Assembly: GCA_018005585.1 (NCBI GenBank)
Contig: JAGMZX010000041.1
Coordinates: 1-40,723, forward strand
Direction: 5' to 3'
From: Candidatus Hydrogenedentota bacterium
GTDB lineage: Bacteria; Hydrogenedentota; Hydrogenedentia; Hydrogenedentales; JAGMZX01
Length of the DNA stretch: 40,723 nucleotides
Each line of letters opens with the position of its first letter. Position 1 is the first letter of the stretch. Shown here piece after piece: positions 12,097-19,825 of the stretch. Below the pieces are notes generated by a model, which worked only from the letters and a program-made list of their open reading frames with translations, made no database searches and was not told the origin of the DNA. Both the position numbers and the translations under genes were made by a program.

Positions 12097-12151
12097 GGCA
12101 TGAACCCAAGACCGTTCACGTTCCGGACCTGGTTCCGCCCGCTTGGGCGTG

Positions 12152-12157
12152 TATAAT
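12152..12157 (+). promoter_or_regulatory. Probable -10 box for the glycoside-hydrolase-like gene
   Basis: A perfect TATAAT stands 43 bases before the chosen start codon. No clear TTGACA-like box is seen at the usual distance, which would fit activator-dependent expression. Confidence 0.45.
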
Positions 12158-12199
12158 GAAAGCCCGGCAAGGCCGGGACGCGTGGAGGGAGTTTGGCCT

Positions 12200-14116
12200 A
12201 TGGGTATGCGCCATTCGCTGTTTTGCTTCGTTACGGCGCAGGCGTTGTCAGCCGCTGCGGCGGCGGCCGGGGATGCAGGCATCATGGCAGGTGAACGTGG
12301 CGAACCGCTGTTCTTCAGCGTTTACGTGGTGGCAGGGCAAGTGCCCGAAGTCCTGGCCTCGCCTCAAGCGGCCGTGGACGCATTGCGCCGCCTCGAAATC
12401 CGCAAGGTATACCTCGAATTCTGTCGCGCGGGCACGGTAATCGACCGCGGCACGCTCGATAGGGCGCGCGATCTCCTGCTCGAACGGGGCTTTGCCGTGG
12501 CGGGCGGCATTGCGACCGTGCCAGGGGCCGGGTTCGGCACGGCGTCCGACGGACAACTGAACTGGTTCCAGTATGAGGACGAGAAGACGCGCGCGGACCT
12601 CGAACGGGTGATGCGCGACGCGGCGCCGGTCTTTTCCGAGATCATCGTGGACGACTTCCTCTGCACGGACGACACGAGTGTACCGTCACAACAGGCGCGG
12701 GGCTCGCGCTCCTGGAGCGACTACCGGCGCGACCTGATGCTGGACGTGGCGGAGCGGACACTCATCGCGCCCGCAAGGGCCGAAAATCCCGGAATTACCC
12801 TGGTCATCAAGTATCCGCAATGGTACGACCGCTATCACCTGCACGGATACGATGTGGCCCGCATGACCGAACAGTTCGACCGCGTCCGGGTCGGCACGGA
12901 GACGCGCGGCGCGGATACGCAGCGCTTCGGGTTCGTCCAGCCCTACGAAGGATTCGTGAGTTTCCGCTGGATGCGCGACGTGGCGGGCGCGAAGCTGGGC
13001 GGCGCATGGTTTGACCACCTCGATTGCGACGCGGACGCTTTTCTGGACCAAGCCTATCAGACCGTTCTGGCTGGCGCGCATGAGATTATCCTCTTCAATT
13101 TCGCCGACATAATCGAGGGCCACCCGGGCCACGAACTCCTGCGCCGGGACGCCGCGCGGCTCGCCGCACTTGCTGCCGCCGTGGACCCCGATGCGGACCG
13201 CGGCGCGCGTTGCTACAAACCGCCGCACAGCGACGCGGGCGGCGACATGTATCTTATGGATTATCTGGGCATGCTCGGGATTCCGCTATTGCCCGTCTCG
13301 CAGTTCCCCGAGGAACCCGGCGTGCTGGTTCTGCCCACGCAGGCCGCCGCCGACCCTGCCGTCACGGCGACGGTGACGGAACGCTTGTCCGGCCTCGACG
13401 CGCTGTTTATGACCGCGGGTTTTCTGGCCGCACCGGCGGGCGAACCCGGCCTCAGCGCGCTCGCGGGTGTCGAGAAACCCGTTGCGCAGGCGCCGCTCCT
13501 TGCCGAAAGCGCGGTCGTCGACGGGATTGAGACCCGGTTGCCGTGTCCGCTCGAGCTCGCCGCCGATTTGTCGCTCCGCGACGCGGCGACGGTCCTCGAG
13601 GCCGTCGTGGCAGGCCGGCGCGTGCCGTTTCTGACCAAAGTCACGCGCTGGGGCACGCCCGTGTACGTGCTCAATGTTCACACGTTTACCCAGGCGGATT
13701 TCGACGCCGTGGGCGAGGTGCTCCTCGCGCCGAAACCCGCCGGACTGCTCGAACTGCCGCAGGCGTGGGCGGACATCCTGCGAGACGCATTCATTGCCGA
13801 CCTGGGCATAGCGCTGAGTGCGCCTCCGCGCGTCGCGTTGCAGTCCGTGGGTGAAAACGCCTGGTTCCTTCAGAACTACCGCGAAGAGCCCGTCGATGCC
13901 GTGTTGTCGTTCGATGCGTTGCCCTGGTGCCGCGTGCGCGACGGTTTCGGCGGGCGCGGGAGAGAGGCGTTTCCCGGCGCAACCGTGACAATCGACGGCG
14001 CGCGCGCGGAAATGCGTCTGGAACCGCGCGCACGGGTCTGGTTCGCCATCGACGAGCCCCTGATTGTTGATCCGGTCTACGAGGAACCGCCGGCACAACC
14101 GGAGGAGAATCAGTGA
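12200..14116 (+). CDS. Exported protein with glycoside-hydrolase-like barrel and GATase-like domain (putative)
   Basis: The 638-residue product starts with a probable signal peptide (residues 1 to about 22). The first 340 residues alternate strands and helices as in a (beta/alpha)8 barrel, with acidic residues at strand ends such as EIIVDDF and GGAWFDHLDCDAD, suggesting a glycoside-hydrolase-like active site. Residues of about 350-450 resemble the glutamine-amidotransferase-like domain found behind the barrel in GH42-type enzymes. The rest is beta-rich. No specific family is recognised. ATG 12200 is preceded by GGAGGGAG; the frame is open to 12143 but would add residues before the signal. A sulfatase and a lyase-like gene follow on the same strand, so a role in carbohydrate breakdown is likely but unproven. 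Confidence 0.65.
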   Translation: MGMRHSLFCFVTAQALSAAAAAAGDAGIMAGERGEPLFFSVYVVAGQVPEVLASPQAAVDALRRLEIRKVYLEFCRAGTVIDRGTLDRARDLLLERGFAVAGGIATVPGAGFGTASDGQLNWFQYEDEKTRADLERVMRDAAPVFSEIIVDDFLCTDDTSVPSQQARGSRSWSDYRRDLMLDVAERTLIAPARAENPGITLVIKYPQWYDRYHLHGYDVARMTEQFDRVRVGTETRGADTQRFGFVQPYEGFVSFRWMRDVAGAKLGGAWFDHLDCDADAFLDQAYQTVLAGAHEIILFNFADIIEGHPGHELLRRDAARLAALAAAVDPDADRGARCYKPPHSDAGGDMYLMDYLGMLGIPLLPVSQFPEEPGVLVLPTQAAADPAVTATVTERLSGLDALFMTAGFLAAPAGEPGLSALAGVEKPVAQAPLLAESAVVDGIETRLPCPLELAADLSLRDAATVLEAVVAGRRVPFLTKVTRWGTPVYVLNVHTFTQADFDAVGEVLLAPKPAGLLELPQAWADILRDAFIADLGIALSAPPRVALQSVGENAWFLQNYREEPVDAVLSFDALPWCRVRDGFGGRGREAFPGATVTIDGARAEMRLEPRARVWFAIDEPLIVDPVYEEPPAQPEENQ

Positions 14117-14258: not shown

Positions 14259-15692
14259 ATGGACCGGCGTGATTTTCTTCGCATCTTGGGCGCAGGCGCG
14301 GCGGCCGCGCTGCACCCCGCGGGCGCAGCGGGCAACCCGGAACAGCCGCGCGCCGCGGCGCCGAACATCGTACTCATCCTCATAGATGACCTCGGGTGGG
14401 CCGACCTCTCCTGTTACGGCAGCACGTTTTACGAGACACCGCATCTGGACCGGCTCGCCAGCGAGGGCGCGCGTTTCACGAACGGGTACGCCGCCTGCGC
14501 GGTGTGCTCGCCAACGCGCGCGGCGGTGCTTACCGGGCGCTATCCCGCCCGCATCGGCGTCACGGACTGGATTCGCGCCGGGTTCCAGCGCGGGGCCGAC
14601 GCCACGCTGACGGAATACCCGGGCGGCTACGTGGGCGCGCCGGGCCGCAGCTTGATTTGCCCGCGCAATCCCTACTGGCTCGAACTGGACGAGGTGACGC
14701 TCGCGGAGGTGCTGAAAGCGCGCGGCTACTCCACGTGCCATGTCGGGAAATGGCACCTGGGCGATGAACCCTGGTACCCCGAGCATCAGGGGTTTGACAT
14801 CAACATCGGCGGCTGCGACTTCGGCCATCCGCCGTCCTATTTTGACCCCTATTGCCGCGAACATCAGGGTTGCATCGAGAACCTGCCCTCCCGCCGCGAG
14901 GGCGAATACCTCACCGACCGGCTCGCCGGTGAAGCGGCGCGGTTTATCCGGGATCATGCGGACCGTCCCTTCTTCCTCTATATGGCGCACTACGCGGTGC
15001 ATACGCCGTTACAGGCGAAGGAAGCCATGGTCGCGAAATACCGCGCGAAACCGCCCACGCATCAGAAAGACCCGGTGTACGCGGCCATGGTCGAGAGCAT
15101 GGACGAGGCCGTAAGGGCCGTGCTCGCCGCGCTCGAAGAGAGCGGCGTGGCGGACCAAACGATTGTGATCTTCACCTCGGACAACGGCGGGTTGACCGGC
15201 AAGACGAGCAACGCGCCGCTCCGTGCGGGTAAGGGCACGCCGTACGAGGGCGGCATTCGCGTGCCGCTAATCGTGCGGTGGCCGGGCGTCGTGGAAGCGG
15301 GGCGCGTGAGCAATACCCCCGTGTGCAGCATAGATTTTCTGCCCACCTTGTGCGCGGCGGTGGAGGCGCCGCTGCCCGCGGGCCGCCCGATCGATGGAGA
15401 AAACCTCGTTCCCCTGCTGGCGGCCGCGGAAGACCTCAACCGCCAAACCCTTTTCTGGCATTTCCCGCACTATCGCGACGAGAAACAGGGGCCCTACAGC
15501 ATCGTGCGCGACGGCCCGTGGAAATTGATCCGCTGGTACGAGGGCCCGCGTCATGAACTGTACCGCCTCGACGAAGACCCCGGCGAAGAGCGCGACCTTG
15601 CCGCGCAGAGCCCGGGACAGTGCGCGGATTTGGCCTCAAGCCTGGATGACTGGCTCGCGCGCACGGGCGCCAGATTGCCCCGGCAAGCCTGA
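14259..15692 (+). CDS. Tat-exported type I sulfatase (arylsulfatase A-like)
   Basis: This 477-residue enzyme has every signature of the alkaline-phosphatase-fold sulfatases. The metal site is IDDLGWAD (Asp43, Asp44). The maturation motif CSPTR (Cys83, converted to formylglycine by an FGE enzyme or anaerobic sulfatase-maturating enzyme) is followed by the TGRYP region. GKWHLG and SDNGG provide further ligands. The N-terminus DRRDFLRILGAGAAAAL is a twin-arginine signal, implying folded export to the periplasm. ATG 14259 is the start that places this signal at the N-terminus; an upstream frame to 14208 is ignored. It removes sulfate esters, plausibly from sulfated glycans given the neighbours. 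The exact sulfatase subfamily is not determinable by eye. No maturase gene is in the window. Confidence 0.93.
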   Translation: MDRRDFLRILGAGAAAALHPAGAAGNPEQPRAAAPNIVLILIDDLGWADLSCYGSTFYETPHLDRLASEGARFTNGYAACAVCSPTRAAVLTGRYPARIGVTDWIRAGFQRGADATLTEYPGGYVGAPGRSLICPRNPYWLELDEVTLAEVLKARGYSTCHVGKWHLGDEPWYPEHQGFDINIGGCDFGHPPSYFDPYCREHQGCIENLPSRREGEYLTDRLAGEAARFIRDHADRPFFLYMAHYAVHTPLQAKEAMVAKYRAKPPTHQKDPVYAAMVESMDEAVRAVLAALEESGVADQTIVIFTSDNGGLTGKTSNAPLRAGKGTPYEGGIRVPLIVRWPGVVEAGRVSNTPVCSIDFLPTLCAAVEAPLPAGRPIDGENLVPLLAAAEDLNRQTLFWHFPHYRDEKQGPYSIVRDGPWKLIRWYEGPRHELYRLDEDPGEERDLAAQSPGQCADLASSLDDWLARTGARLPRQA

Positions 15693-15748
15693 ACAAGGCC
15701 TCGCCGGGGTGTATGGACATTCCGGTCAAAAGGTAGTAGCCTCATCAT

Positions 15749-16234
15749 ATGGCGGATGTGACCCTGCATATCGACGACCCGGCAACGCGGATATCGGTCA
15801 AGACGATGCTCGAGGCCGCAGGCCATCGCATCGTGCCCGGCACGTCCGAAATCGTCGTCTCGGACTTGAACGATCCCGCCGTCCTGCGGGCAAACGAGAT
15901 TCCCACGCTGGTGCTCTGCACCGCCGCGGAGCTGCCCCGCGCCGTCAGCGCCATGCGCCGCGGCGTTTTCGGATACGTCTTCCTGCCCCTGCAGCCGGGC
16001 GAGGTTGAGGTGATGGTCGAGCGCGCGCTCTCGTGGCGCACTCCGGAACCGAAACCGGAGTCCGAGGCCTTGCAGGACGGCTCTGTCGCCACCCTCGCCG
16101 ATATCGAGCGCGAGCATGTCCTGCGCGTGCTGCGCGCCTGCAAGTTCAACCGGTCGGAGGCCGCGCGCGTCCTCGGCATCGGACGCAATACGCTCTGGCG
16201 TAAACTGCGGCAATATAAGCGCGAAAAGACGTGA
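15749..16234 (+). CDS. Small regulator: shortened receiver-like domain plus Fis-type HTH
   Basis: This 161-residue protein combines a receiver-like N-terminus with a C-terminal Fis/NtrC-type helix-turn-helix (residues about 118-157: HVLRVLRACKFNRSEAARVLGIGRNTLWRKL). The receiver keeps the acidic pair (Asp9-Asp10), a possible phospho-acceptor Asp39 in VVSDLNDP, and Thr58. However, the segment between helix 1 and strand 3 is about 20 residues shorter than usual, removing strand 2 and helix 2. The conserved Lys is replaced by Leu79 (FLPLQPGE). It therefore looks like a compact ActR/PrrA-type regulator with a doubtful phosphorylation site. Its stop is one base from the lyase-like start, so it is almost certainly cotranscribed with and likely regulates this locus. 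No histidine kinase is adjacent. Confidence 0.78.
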   Translation: MADVTLHIDDPATRISVKTMLEAAGHRIVPGTSEIVVSDLNDPAVLRANEIPTLVLCTAAELPRAVSAMRRGVFGYVFLPLQPGEVEVMVERALSWRTPEPKPESEALQDGSVATLADIEREHVLRVLRACKFNRSEAARVLGIGRNTLWRKLRQYKREKT

Positions 16235-16235
16235 C

Positions 16236-18188
16236 ATGATGCGGCGATGTCTTGCCCTGCTCGCGACCTTCTCGTGGCCGTGGCTGGCCACCGCCTGGGC
16301 GCCGTTGCCCATGTGCCCTCCGGCGGATGCGCCCGGCCCCGCCGACATGCCCCGTGTGCTCGACCGCCTGTACGCCGCGATCGAGGGCCAGGCGCGTCAA
16401 CTGCTGACGACCGTCCACCCTTGGGACAGTGATCCCCAGTTCAAACTGCTCACCGAGAGCCGGCACGACGAGCACTGGGTTCGTCCGAACACGGGCGCAT
16501 TCGCGGGATTCTGCTTTCTGTGCCGGTTTGGCGCGTATGACGCCGCCCGCACCGGCGTTACGCGCGAGGAATTGCTCCAAAGCGCCGTAATCCCGATGGG
16601 CCGGTATCTGGTGGCCACGCATGTGACCGGGTCGCGCGCGACCGGCGACGGCGAGCCCTGGGGTGACCAGTGGCAGTCGGCGCACTGGGCGCACATGCTC
16701 GCGCGCGGCGCATGGTGGGTGTGGCACAGCCTGCCGGAAGACCTGCGCGAGGGCGTGTGCCGCGTCATCGCGCATGAGGCGGACCGTTTCGTCCACGAGG
16801 CGCCGCCCCACAATCTGGCCGACGACACGAAGGCCGAGGAAAACGCCTGGAACTGTCAGGCGCTCTCGACGGCTATTGTCCTGATGCCCGATGACCCGCG
16901 CCGGCCCGATTGGGAGCGCGCGTTCCAGCGCTGGGCCTTGTCGTCGTTCCTGCGGCCGGCCGATGCGGCGTCGGACGCGGTCATGGACGGCAGGCCGTTG
17001 TCTGAGCAGTTCACCGGCGCAAACATCTACGACGATTTCACGCTCGAAAACCACGGCCGCATTCACCCAGACTACATGTCCACGTTCCTGCTGTCGGCGG
17101 GTTGCGTCCTCGACTTCGCCATGACCGGGCGCACGCCGCCGCAGGCCCTCTTCCACAATGTGCCGGGACTGTACGAGAACCTGAAATGGTTCTCGCTGCC
17201 GGGCGGCGGGTTCGTCTATCCCAACGGCCAGGATTGGGAACTCTTCCGCGACCCCGAGTGGCTGGTGGTCCACATGCTCATGGCCGCGCACGGCGGCGAC
17301 CCGGACGCGTGGAGCCTGCTGCGGTGCTGCCTCGATACTCAGGACAAGATGCAGGCCCGCACGCCGTCGGGCGCGGTCTATCTCGACAGCGAGTTCTTTT
17401 TCCCCTCGACCCGGACGGACCAGTTGTACTACAACGTGCTCGCGTGGCTTTTCGGGCAATACCGTAACCCCACCGTGGACGCGCCGCGCGCGCGTCTCGG
17501 CGTGCTGGCGCTTGAGAAGGGGCGCATTCTGCTTCACCGCACGGCTGATGCCGTCCATACGATAAGTTGGGGCGCGGAAATCATGGTCCAGTTCGTGCCG
17601 CAACGGCTCGACCGGGTCACCTCGCCTTGCCCACAAAGCGGGATCGGCCATATCCGCCTCGCGGGCGCGAAGGAGGCGCTGCCCGTGCAGGTGCGCCGTA
17701 TCGCCGTAGACAGAGAAGACGGTTTTTCAGCCGGGCTCGACCTCGTGTACGGCGATGGCCTTGCAGCGGCGCGGTGGCGCGTGCGGTCCACGCCCGACGG
17801 CGTCATGCGCTGGCAGGCCACGCTCACGGCTCTCCAGGACATCGAAACGGAAGAAGTCGCGGCGGGCCTGATTGGCGTTCTCAACAACGCGACGTGGGTA
17901 TACGAACGCGGCGTGCGCAACATCGGCATAGACGGCGCGAACCATGCCGTCGCCTGCGGCAGCGGCGAGGTGGTCCGCCGCGACGGCGCGCACGCCGTGT
18001 CCGTTGACGATGTGGTCCACATCACATCGGAAAGGCCGCTTTCGTGCTGTTACAGGGCGGCGGTCAAGCCTGATCGCGCCCGTTTCACGGATGAACTGTA
18101 CTTGATCTATCATGACGCGCGAACGAAGTGGCCAAGCGGCGCGGTAATCGCCGAACTGGACGCGCGCCTGACGGCGGCGCCGGAGTAG
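16236..18188 (+). CDS. Exported alpha/alpha-toroid protein, heparinase/alginate-lyase-like (putative)
   Basis: The 650-residue product begins with a signal peptide (about residues 1-22, MMRRCLALLATFSW...). The first 400 residues are helical with many Trp, matching the toroid of heparinase/alginate-lyase-type polysaccharide lyases. Conserved-looking active-site candidates are KAEENAWNCQAL and ENHGRIHPDYM, where Asn, His and Tyr recall the lyase Asn/His/Tyr arrangement. The C-terminal 220 residues are beta-rich, as in the lyase beta-sandwich. Family identity is inferred from pattern, not alignment. ATG 16236 follows the regulator stop by one base; an overlapping upstream start is unlikely because it would remove the signal peptide from the N-terminus. 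With the sulfatase upstream, degradation of a sulfated uronic-acid polysaccharide is a reasonable hypothesis. Confidence 0.65.
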   Translation: MMRRCLALLATFSWPWLATAWAPLPMCPPADAPGPADMPRVLDRLYAAIEGQARQLLTTVHPWDSDPQFKLLTESRHDEHWVRPNTGAFAGFCFLCRFGAYDAARTGVTREELLQSAVIPMGRYLVATHVTGSRATGDGEPWGDQWQSAHWAHMLARGAWWVWHSLPEDLREGVCRVIAHEADRFVHEAPPHNLADDTKAEENAWNCQALSTAIVLMPDDPRRPDWERAFQRWALSSFLRPADAASDAVMDGRPLSEQFTGANIYDDFTLENHGRIHPDYMSTFLLSAGCVLDFAMTGRTPPQALFHNVPGLYENLKWFSLPGGGFVYPNGQDWELFRDPEWLVVHMLMAAHGGDPDAWSLLRCCLDTQDKMQARTPSGAVYLDSEFFFPSTRTDQLYYNVLAWLFGQYRNPTVDAPRARLGVLALEKGRILLHRTADAVHTISWGAEIMVQFVPQRLDRVTSPCPQSGIGHIRLAGAKEALPVQVRRIAVDREDGFSAGLDLVYGDGLAAARWRVRSTPDGVMRWQATLTALQDIETEEVAAGLIGVLNNATWVYERGVRNIGIDGANHAVACGSGEVVRRDGAHAVSVDDVVHITSERPLSCCYRAAVKPDRARFTDELYLIYHDARTKWPSGAVIAELDARLTAAPE

Positions 18189-19060: not shown

Positions 19061-19825
19061 TCAACCCGCCTTCATTGGCTTCCCGACTTCCTCCCGAATG
19101 AATACGTCGAGTAATTCCGGGTCGAAATGCTTGCCGCGCTCGCTCTTGAGATACGCGACGGCCTGCTTGTGCGTGCTGAACCCCTTGCGGTAAATCCGCG
19201 GCGTGGTCATGGCACAATAGACGTCGAGAATGCGCATGGCGCGCGCCAGGCGCGGAATGGCGTCCCGCTCCAGCCGCTCCGGGTAACCGGTGCCGTCGTA
19301 ACACTCATGGTGATAGCGGAGGATATCGGCGCATTCGACGAAGATATCCCATTCCTGCAGGAGTTCCGCGCCCAGCGTGGTGTGAGACTGGAGCTGCGTC
19401 CATTCGTCGTAGGTCAGCAGCGATTTCTTGGTCAGCACGTCATTGCCTATACGGAGTTTCCCGATATCCATCAGATAACCCGCGTGTTCGAGCGCGAGCC
19501 GCGCGTCCGCGTCCAGTTCCAGGGCCTGCGCGAACCGCACCGCATGTTCGTGGACGCGGCCGGTGGTGCCCGGCGCCTTGCCTTCCCGCATATCCAGCGC
19601 CAGGCCGATCAGGCGCAGTTGCGTCTCGTAACGCTTGCCCAGCGCGACGGCGGCATCCATGAGGGGCTGCACATCCTTCGCTGCGGTCGCCAGGGCCGTT
19701 ACGGCGTCCGGAAGGCGCTCGCCCTTCACCGCCGTGCGCACGAGCAGGTCCTTGCCCTGTGCCGCCGCTTCATATTTTTCCGTGTTCTTCGCGTTGCCGC
19801 CGATCACGAGTACGCGCTTTAGCAT
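19061..19825 (-). CDS. HD-GYP-like protein with altered HD motif
   Basis: The C-terminal two thirds of this 254-residue protein match the HD-GYP domain of cyclic-di-GMP phosphodiesterases. It has a helix with His92/His94, a core LMDIGKLRIGNDVLTK, a His148 region, and ILRYHHECYDGTGYP followed by RAMRILDVYCAMTT. The normal HDIGK is MDIGK here: the first metal-binding His is replaced by Met119, although His114 lies five residues earlier. The GYP triad is intact. The N-terminal 80 residues are not a receiver domain and are unrecognised. It may be catalytically weakened or act as a sensor. The start has no strong ribosome site. The gene is convergent with the thioredoxin-like gene and divergent from the alcohol dehydrogenase. 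Confidence 0.8.
   Translation of the reverse strand: MLKRVLVIGGNAKNTEKYEAAAQGKDLLVRTAVKGERLPDAVTALATAAKDVQPLMDAAVALGKRYETQLRLIGLALDMREGKAPGTTGRVHEHAVRFAQALELDADARLALEHAGYLMDIGKLRIGNDVLTKKSLLTYDEWTQLQSHTTLGAELLQEWDIFVECADILRYHHECYDGTGYPERLERDAIPRLARAMRILDVYCAMTTPRIYRKGFSTHKQAVAYLKSERGKHFDPELLDVFIREEVGKPMKAG

Follow-up and report, generated by a model that had tools for sequence, protein, structure and literature searches.

A compact pseudo-receiver with a Fis-type output domain, kept in single copy across the Hydrogenedentota

Does a small regulator encoded directly upstream of a lyase-like gene serve the polysaccharide locus in which it appears to lie, and does it work by phosphorylation? This question is raised by a stretch of 40,723 nucleotides from a Candidatus Hydrogenedentota bacterium (contig JAGMZX010000041.1), referred to here as the window. 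A regulator gene in the window is flanked by a sulfatase gene and by a gene for a 650-residue protein (Table 1). A preliminary description of the sequence had taken the regulator to be a receiver joined to a Fis-type helix-turn-helix, and had proposed that it acts without phosphorylation, or by sensing a ligand directly, as the local regulator of a polysaccharide locus.

Table 1. Features of the regulator locus, in window positions.
Feature	Position	Strand	Basis or remark
Sulfatase with TAT signal, upstream neighbour	14262..15692	+	PF00884 E=4.6e-62, with TAT_signal
-35-like element, TGGACA	15714..15719	+	T/G positions conserved in a motif-anchored upstream alignment of 41 orthologues
-10-like element, TAGCCT	15737..15742	+	consensus TGTAGCCT; ends 6 bases 5' of the ATG (15749)
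Regulator reading frame	15749-16234	+	161 aa; TGA stop at 16232-16234
Compact pseudo-receiver, residues 1-97	15749..16039	+	AlphaFold2 model, Foldseek, profile-profile alignment E=1.3e-13
Variable linker, residues 98-114	16040..16090	+	least conserved segment; pLDDT down to 53
Fis-type helix-turn-helix (HTH_8), residues 115-161	16091..16231	+	PF02954 E=1.7e-16
Unclassified 650-aa protein	16236..18188	+	no Pfam or NCBIfam family

The layout of the locus is as first described on the downstream side, where a single base (C, 16235) separates the regulator stop from the next ATG at 16236. On the upstream side, 56 bases lie between the end of the sulfatase gene and the regulator start. Two other genes of the window were noted in passing. 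A 657-residue protein is encoded 5' of the sulfatase (12143-14116, + strand) and has no Pfam or NCBIfam match. An HD-GYP-type protein (19061-19825, - strand; HD_5 E=3.4e-31) has an N-terminal part of about 75 residues without a Pfam match.

The shortened receiver and its output domain

A Pfam search of the regulator returns the Fis helix-turn-helix alone and no receiver match. PF00072 is matched weakly by 20 of 45 family members, and the NCBIfam response-regulator matches, which span the receiver's second half and the helix-turn-helix, are weak and all far under their cut-offs. Structure prediction, a check that had been proposed at the outset, yields a receiver-type fold from which helix 2 is absent; a full receiver fold is not predicted. 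In the AlphaFold2 model (45 orthologues, mean pLDDT 92.6), the receiver part consists of β1 (residues 3-7), helix 1 (11-23), a strand 2 of about two residues, β3 (35-38), helix 3 (41-48), β4 (53-57), helix 4 (59-70), β5 (75-78) and helix 5 (85-97). Foldseek matches the model to receivers and to the full-length response regulators FixJ, NtrX and NtrC1, and isolated receivers align with it at 2.0 Å, with a target TM of about 0.7 and E-values down to 3.6e-07. A profile alignment (hhalign) of the regulator family with receivers of its own genome gives E=1.3e-13; the reference set holds 27 same-genome sequences, of which 26 are clear receivers and the last, L192, an evident mis-extraction.

The domain has lost about 23 residues in two deletions. 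Thirteen are missing at helix 2, between strands 2 and 3, and 10 directly after Asp39, which takes out the β3-α3 loop and the start of helix 3. The preliminary description had placed a loss of about 20 residues at strand 2 and helix 2. The shortness stands, and its location is refined, in that a second site includes the β3-α3 loop and strand 2 persists as about two residues. The short receiver is not the product of chance or of a frameshift, since 54 orthologous loci share the same start and the same length, which is 95-100 residues when counted to the equivalent of residue 97 in the window protein.

The catalytic positions were read from the profile alignment across 55 orthologues. The first acid is replaced by Ile8, a position that is hydrophobic (I, V or L) in all 55, and the second falls on residue 9, which is variable (Asp in 14, Glu in 12, the rest varied). 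This loss of the acidic pair adds to the absence of the conserved lysine, which had been recognized before and is borne out: its position is Leu79, and Lys occurs in none of the 55 (Leu 31, Val 19, Ile 3, Ser 1, Thr 1). The threonine position is residue 57, with Ala in 32, Thr in 7 and Ser in 6. The phospho-acceptor is Asp39, an Asp in 47 of the 55 (otherwise Gly 3, Glu 2, Gln 2, Ser 1), while the switch tyrosine, Tyr76, is retained in 53 and Pro80 in every one. From the residue set of a phosphorylatable response regulator (acidic pair, Asp, Thr/Ser, Lys), the Asp alone is mostly kept.

A pseudo-receiver is one in which any one of the five conserved residues is missing (PMC12632262). Having a receiver fold and having lost conserved residues, the regulator is a pseudo-receiver by this published definition, which makes action without phosphorylation likely. 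The earlier proposal on this point is strengthened by the loss or lack of conservation of four of the five catalytic residues, by the deletion of the β3-α3 loop, and by the absence of the Asp itself in 8 of 55 orthologues. Phosphorylation may survive substitutions of the acids, Thr or Lys (PMC12632262). Since Asp39 and the switch tyrosine are so widely kept, and Pro80 is invariant, the regulator could conceivably be phosphorylated weakly, in which case an orphan kinase would donate phosphate to Asp39 and the tyrosine would serve for readout. However, the first metal-binding acid and the lysine are lost throughout the family, the β3-α3 loop is deleted, and eight members carry Gly, Gln, Ser or Glu in place of the Asp; we regard a weakly phosphorylatable response regulator as very unlikely.

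The C-terminal part is a Fis-type helix-turn-helix. PF02954 scores 60.1 bits against a Pfam cut-off of 22 and is matched in 45 of 45 orthologues, and the Fis helices are modelled at residues 116-160. The recognition helix, GIGRNTLWRKL, is nearly invariant within the family. Conservation peaks in β5 and the β5-α5 loop (3.9 and 3.3 bits; GYIFLPLQPG) and in the recognition helix (3.6 bits); the least conserved segments are the linker and helix 3. The closest paralogue in the own genome, by E-value, is the C-terminus of a 442-residue protein whose recognition helix, LGISRSTLWRKM, is similar. A redox switch at Cys131 (48 of 55 orthologues) was considered and dropped; this cysteine is not a family signature, because several NtrC-type proteins elsewhere have the same residue in their Fis domains.

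Outside the phylum, the Fis helix-turn-helix nearest by sequence belongs to NtrC-type sigma-54 activators (at most 76% identity, the GIGRNTLWRKL helix included). In contrast to these, the regulator has no AAA+ domain, having a 17-residue linker without a match, and its receiver is shortened and degenerate, which places it outside that class. A protein without an AAA+ domain cannot itself drive sigma-54 open-complex formation. The probable ancestor of the regulator is an NtrC-type activator (receiver, AAA+, Fis), from which it would have descended by loss of the AAA+ domain and shrinkage of the receiver. The redox response regulators RegA/PrrA/ActR (NF033791) are likewise small two-domain proteins with a receiver and a Fis helix-turn-helix. 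The regulator scores 28.7 bits against their cut-off of 250 and, unlike them, lacks an intact phosphorylation site and helix 2.

The regulator also resembles the pseudo-receivers, or atypical response regulators, such as HP1043, ChxR, RitR, FleQ and JadR1 (PMC12632262). In these proteins, several of the five catalytic residues are also missing next to a DNA-binding domain, and phosphorylation-independent action is expected. Differences in helix 2 and the loop are on record for pseudo-receivers (PMC12632262). What sets the regulator family apart is that both are deleted throughout, that the output is of Fis type, and that the family is confined to one phylum in single copy. No description of a pseudo-receiver form with helix 2 and the loop deleted was found in the literature searched. 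The regulator is a new, phylum-restricted and compacted member of the pseudo-receiver class.

Distribution and gene neighbourhood

A colinear orthologue, equally short in every case, is present in 55 of 67 genomes of the same order of Candidatus Hydrogenedentota, with a maximum of one per genome; the count of 55 takes in a contig-edge fragment (G003) and a copy split across two frames (G033). The split copy (G033:C21:29302-29677) runs in two overlapping frames that cover residues 1-93 and 122-157, and reflects either a sequencing frameshift or a pseudogene. Some fairly complete genomes (G008, 95%; G041, 92%) have no full-length copy, so the gene may be non-essential. Among 32 genomes of other lineages, the search gave partial matches over the helix-turn-helix only and no colinear orthologue. 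A scan of one genome for each of 84,980 species found no full-length match outside Hydrogenedentota-type loci, with the limit that it was seeded from two peptide patterns, so that distant forms could escape it. Its full-length matches lie in records labelled Hydrogenedentota or in other bins that correspond to same-order genomes. The remaining matches cover the Fis helix-turn-helix, and NtrC-type proteins or their fragments account for all nine that were inspected. The regulator is a single-copy gene that is kept across the phylum Hydrogenedentota and is specific to it. Ordinary two-component signalling coexists with it, as the 65 receivers above the Pfam cut-off in its own genome indicate.

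The gene downstream of the regulator had been called polysaccharide-lyase-like, an identity that the searches do not uphold. In addition to the missing Pfam and NCBIfam matches, the best PDB match of a 10-sequence profile is alginate lyase A1-III (PL5), which aligns over a short NHGxVxPDY-like stretch and is not significant (E=0.11). Kinship with heparinase II/III was tried and rejected, as the hhalign probability, 0.5%, did not exceed that of an unrelated control. The model of the protein, built from two sequences only, has a pLDDT of 35.5, too low to be usable. Its hydrophobic N-terminus suggests that it is probably secreted. Asn, His, Tyr and Asp residues, including N203, H273, Y280 and D333, are conserved across its homologues, and a distant homologue (L045) carries a GH39-like domain; a polysaccharide-active enzyme is a reasonable guess. 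The window protein and those of L040-L047 have 650-900 residues and share a region without a Pfam match, in which ENHGxxHPDY and NGQDW stretches are conserved. They possibly represent an undescribed carbohydrate-active family.

Both sequenced species of the genus, that of the window and its genus mate (G001), have the regulator in a tight pair with the lyase-like gene, with gaps of 1 and 4 bases respectively. Together with the sulfatase upstream in the window, this pairing would be consistent with a dedicated regulator of a lyase/sulfatase polysaccharide locus that senses a local ligand. However, the lyase-like family is found in 9 of 100 relatives searched and adjoins the regulator only in these two genomes, whereas the regulator is present in 55 genomes of the order. 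Four genomes (G015, G021, G033, G047) have both genes on different contigs. The upstream sulfatase is absent from the G001 locus and is not conserved as a neighbour in the neighbour tables. Sulfatases are the nearest downstream neighbour in 1 of 50 loci and the nearest upstream neighbour in 2 of 47. With a background of 46 matches in 6.08 Mb, about 5 of 55 loci would have a sulfatase within 6.5 kb by chance and six do (main sulfatase cluster), so that sulfatases are about as frequent beside the regulator as the background predicts. The downstream enzyme, moreover, is unclassified. The preliminary description had itself named missing linkage of homologues to lyases and sulfatases as refuting, and in the genomes searched the regulator does not adjoin the lyase-like gene outside the two genomes. 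It is by local accident, in one genus, that the regulator sits beside the lyase-like gene. Since orthologues in other genera do not adjoin that gene, the reading as a local polysaccharide regulator is unsupported; the regulator is probably not dedicated to such a locus, and we consider a ligand-sensing role there highly improbable.

The neighbours were picked from mechanical open reading frames, and a few picks may be wrong. Upstream, MatE (9) and GH20 (5) proteins are found among the 47 loci, and no histidine-kinase family is among the 25 commonest neighbour families listed. Downstream, Fe-ADH_2 proteins take the nearest position in 18 of 50 loci (L053, L055, L060, L062, L063, L087 and 12 others), which makes this the commonest neighbour. 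These genes are co-directional, come from six families of the order, and mostly start between -47 and +95 bases from the regulator stop, with two at 239 and 317. Their closest solved relatives are glycerol-1-phosphate (G1P) dehydrogenases (PDB 9h4x, E=3.4e-36), and the G001 regulator has a divergent Fe-ADH_2 gene immediately 5' of it. Such an arrangement would suit a regulator tied to G1P and membrane-lipid metabolism, ancestrally co-transcribed with the dehydrogenase-like enzyme and either controlling it or answering its product. However, the enzyme is encoded elsewhere in about two thirds of the loci, including the window, whose genome has a 67% identical copy on contig C93, and the adjacency may be a mere ancestral neighbourhood. 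A tie to G1P metabolism seems rather unlikely. Further downstream of the regulator, 11 loci encode an uncharacterised protein of about 370 residues without a Pfam match.

Promoter and proposed mode of action

The upstream regions of the orthologues align as a TTGGA-like element, about 17 bases, TGTAGCCT, 6 bases and the ATG; in the window, the spacer between the -35-like and -10-like elements is 17 bases. Of the 55 orthologues, 34 agree with the -10-like motif at no fewer than 6 of its 8 positions; when all 55 are taken, the best match stands 6 bases from the ATG in 24 of them and 7 bases away in 6. A leaderless mRNA is predicted for about half of the orthologues. The regulator thus appears to have its own promoter, which would make its transcription independent of the sulfatase gene. 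A leaderless arrangement with an adjacent -10 element is described for Deinococcus-Thermus (PMC12340547, PMC3160421), and the layout is similar to it. As a regulon marker, the motif was tried and rejected. An exact search of 20 genomes gave 2 matches, of which one is a regulator gene, and a shorter version has 2 matches in the own genome and 4 in the control. In its exact long form the motif scarcely occurs elsewhere in the 20 genomes; it is gene-specific and defines no regulon. Palindromic operators upstream of 54 regulator genes were also sought; their counts are barely over those of shuffles, with no clear enrichment.

Pseudo-receivers can be constitutively dimeric or ligand-bound, most of their dimers use part of α4-β5-α5, and phosphorylation-free dimers include ChxR and HP1043 (PMC12632262). 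Taken with this known interface, the conservation of β5 and its loop favours a constitutive, DNA-bound dimer. We infer that the degenerate receiver may be a dimerisation module that uses its conserved α4-β5-α5 side to keep two Fis-type heads on their DNA targets. The regulator would then be a housekeeping repressor or an architectural factor, and its activity would be set mainly by its concentration, through its own conserved and often leaderless promoter. A ligand or a protein partner may also adjust this activity, and direct ligand sensing, as first proposed, is possible. We hold this account as a whole, in which a single-copy pseudo-receiver-Fis protein of the Hydrogenedentota acts as a dimeric housekeeping regulator without phosphorylation, to be moderately probable. 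A bolder version, in which the removal of helix 2 and the phosphorylation loop rebuilt the receiver as the minimal ligand-gated dimerisation module of a phylum-defining housekeeping regulator, with a small, possibly G1P-linked metabolite in the vacated pocket, is unlikely.

What turns pseudo-receivers on and off is an open question (PMC12632262). In the version that the Hydrogenedentota carry in single copy, deletions have removed the helix and loop in which pseudo-receivers often differ, and part of the usual dimer surface is the most conserved of the domain. The regulator offers a clean and small test case of whether the α4-β5-α5 surface alone can drive DNA binding. The Fe-ADH_2 neighbourhood bears on ether-lipid or G1P metabolism in the Hydrogenedentota. 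Among the records found, the phylum is known almost wholly from metagenomes, and the regulator provides it with a lineage-wide regulator.
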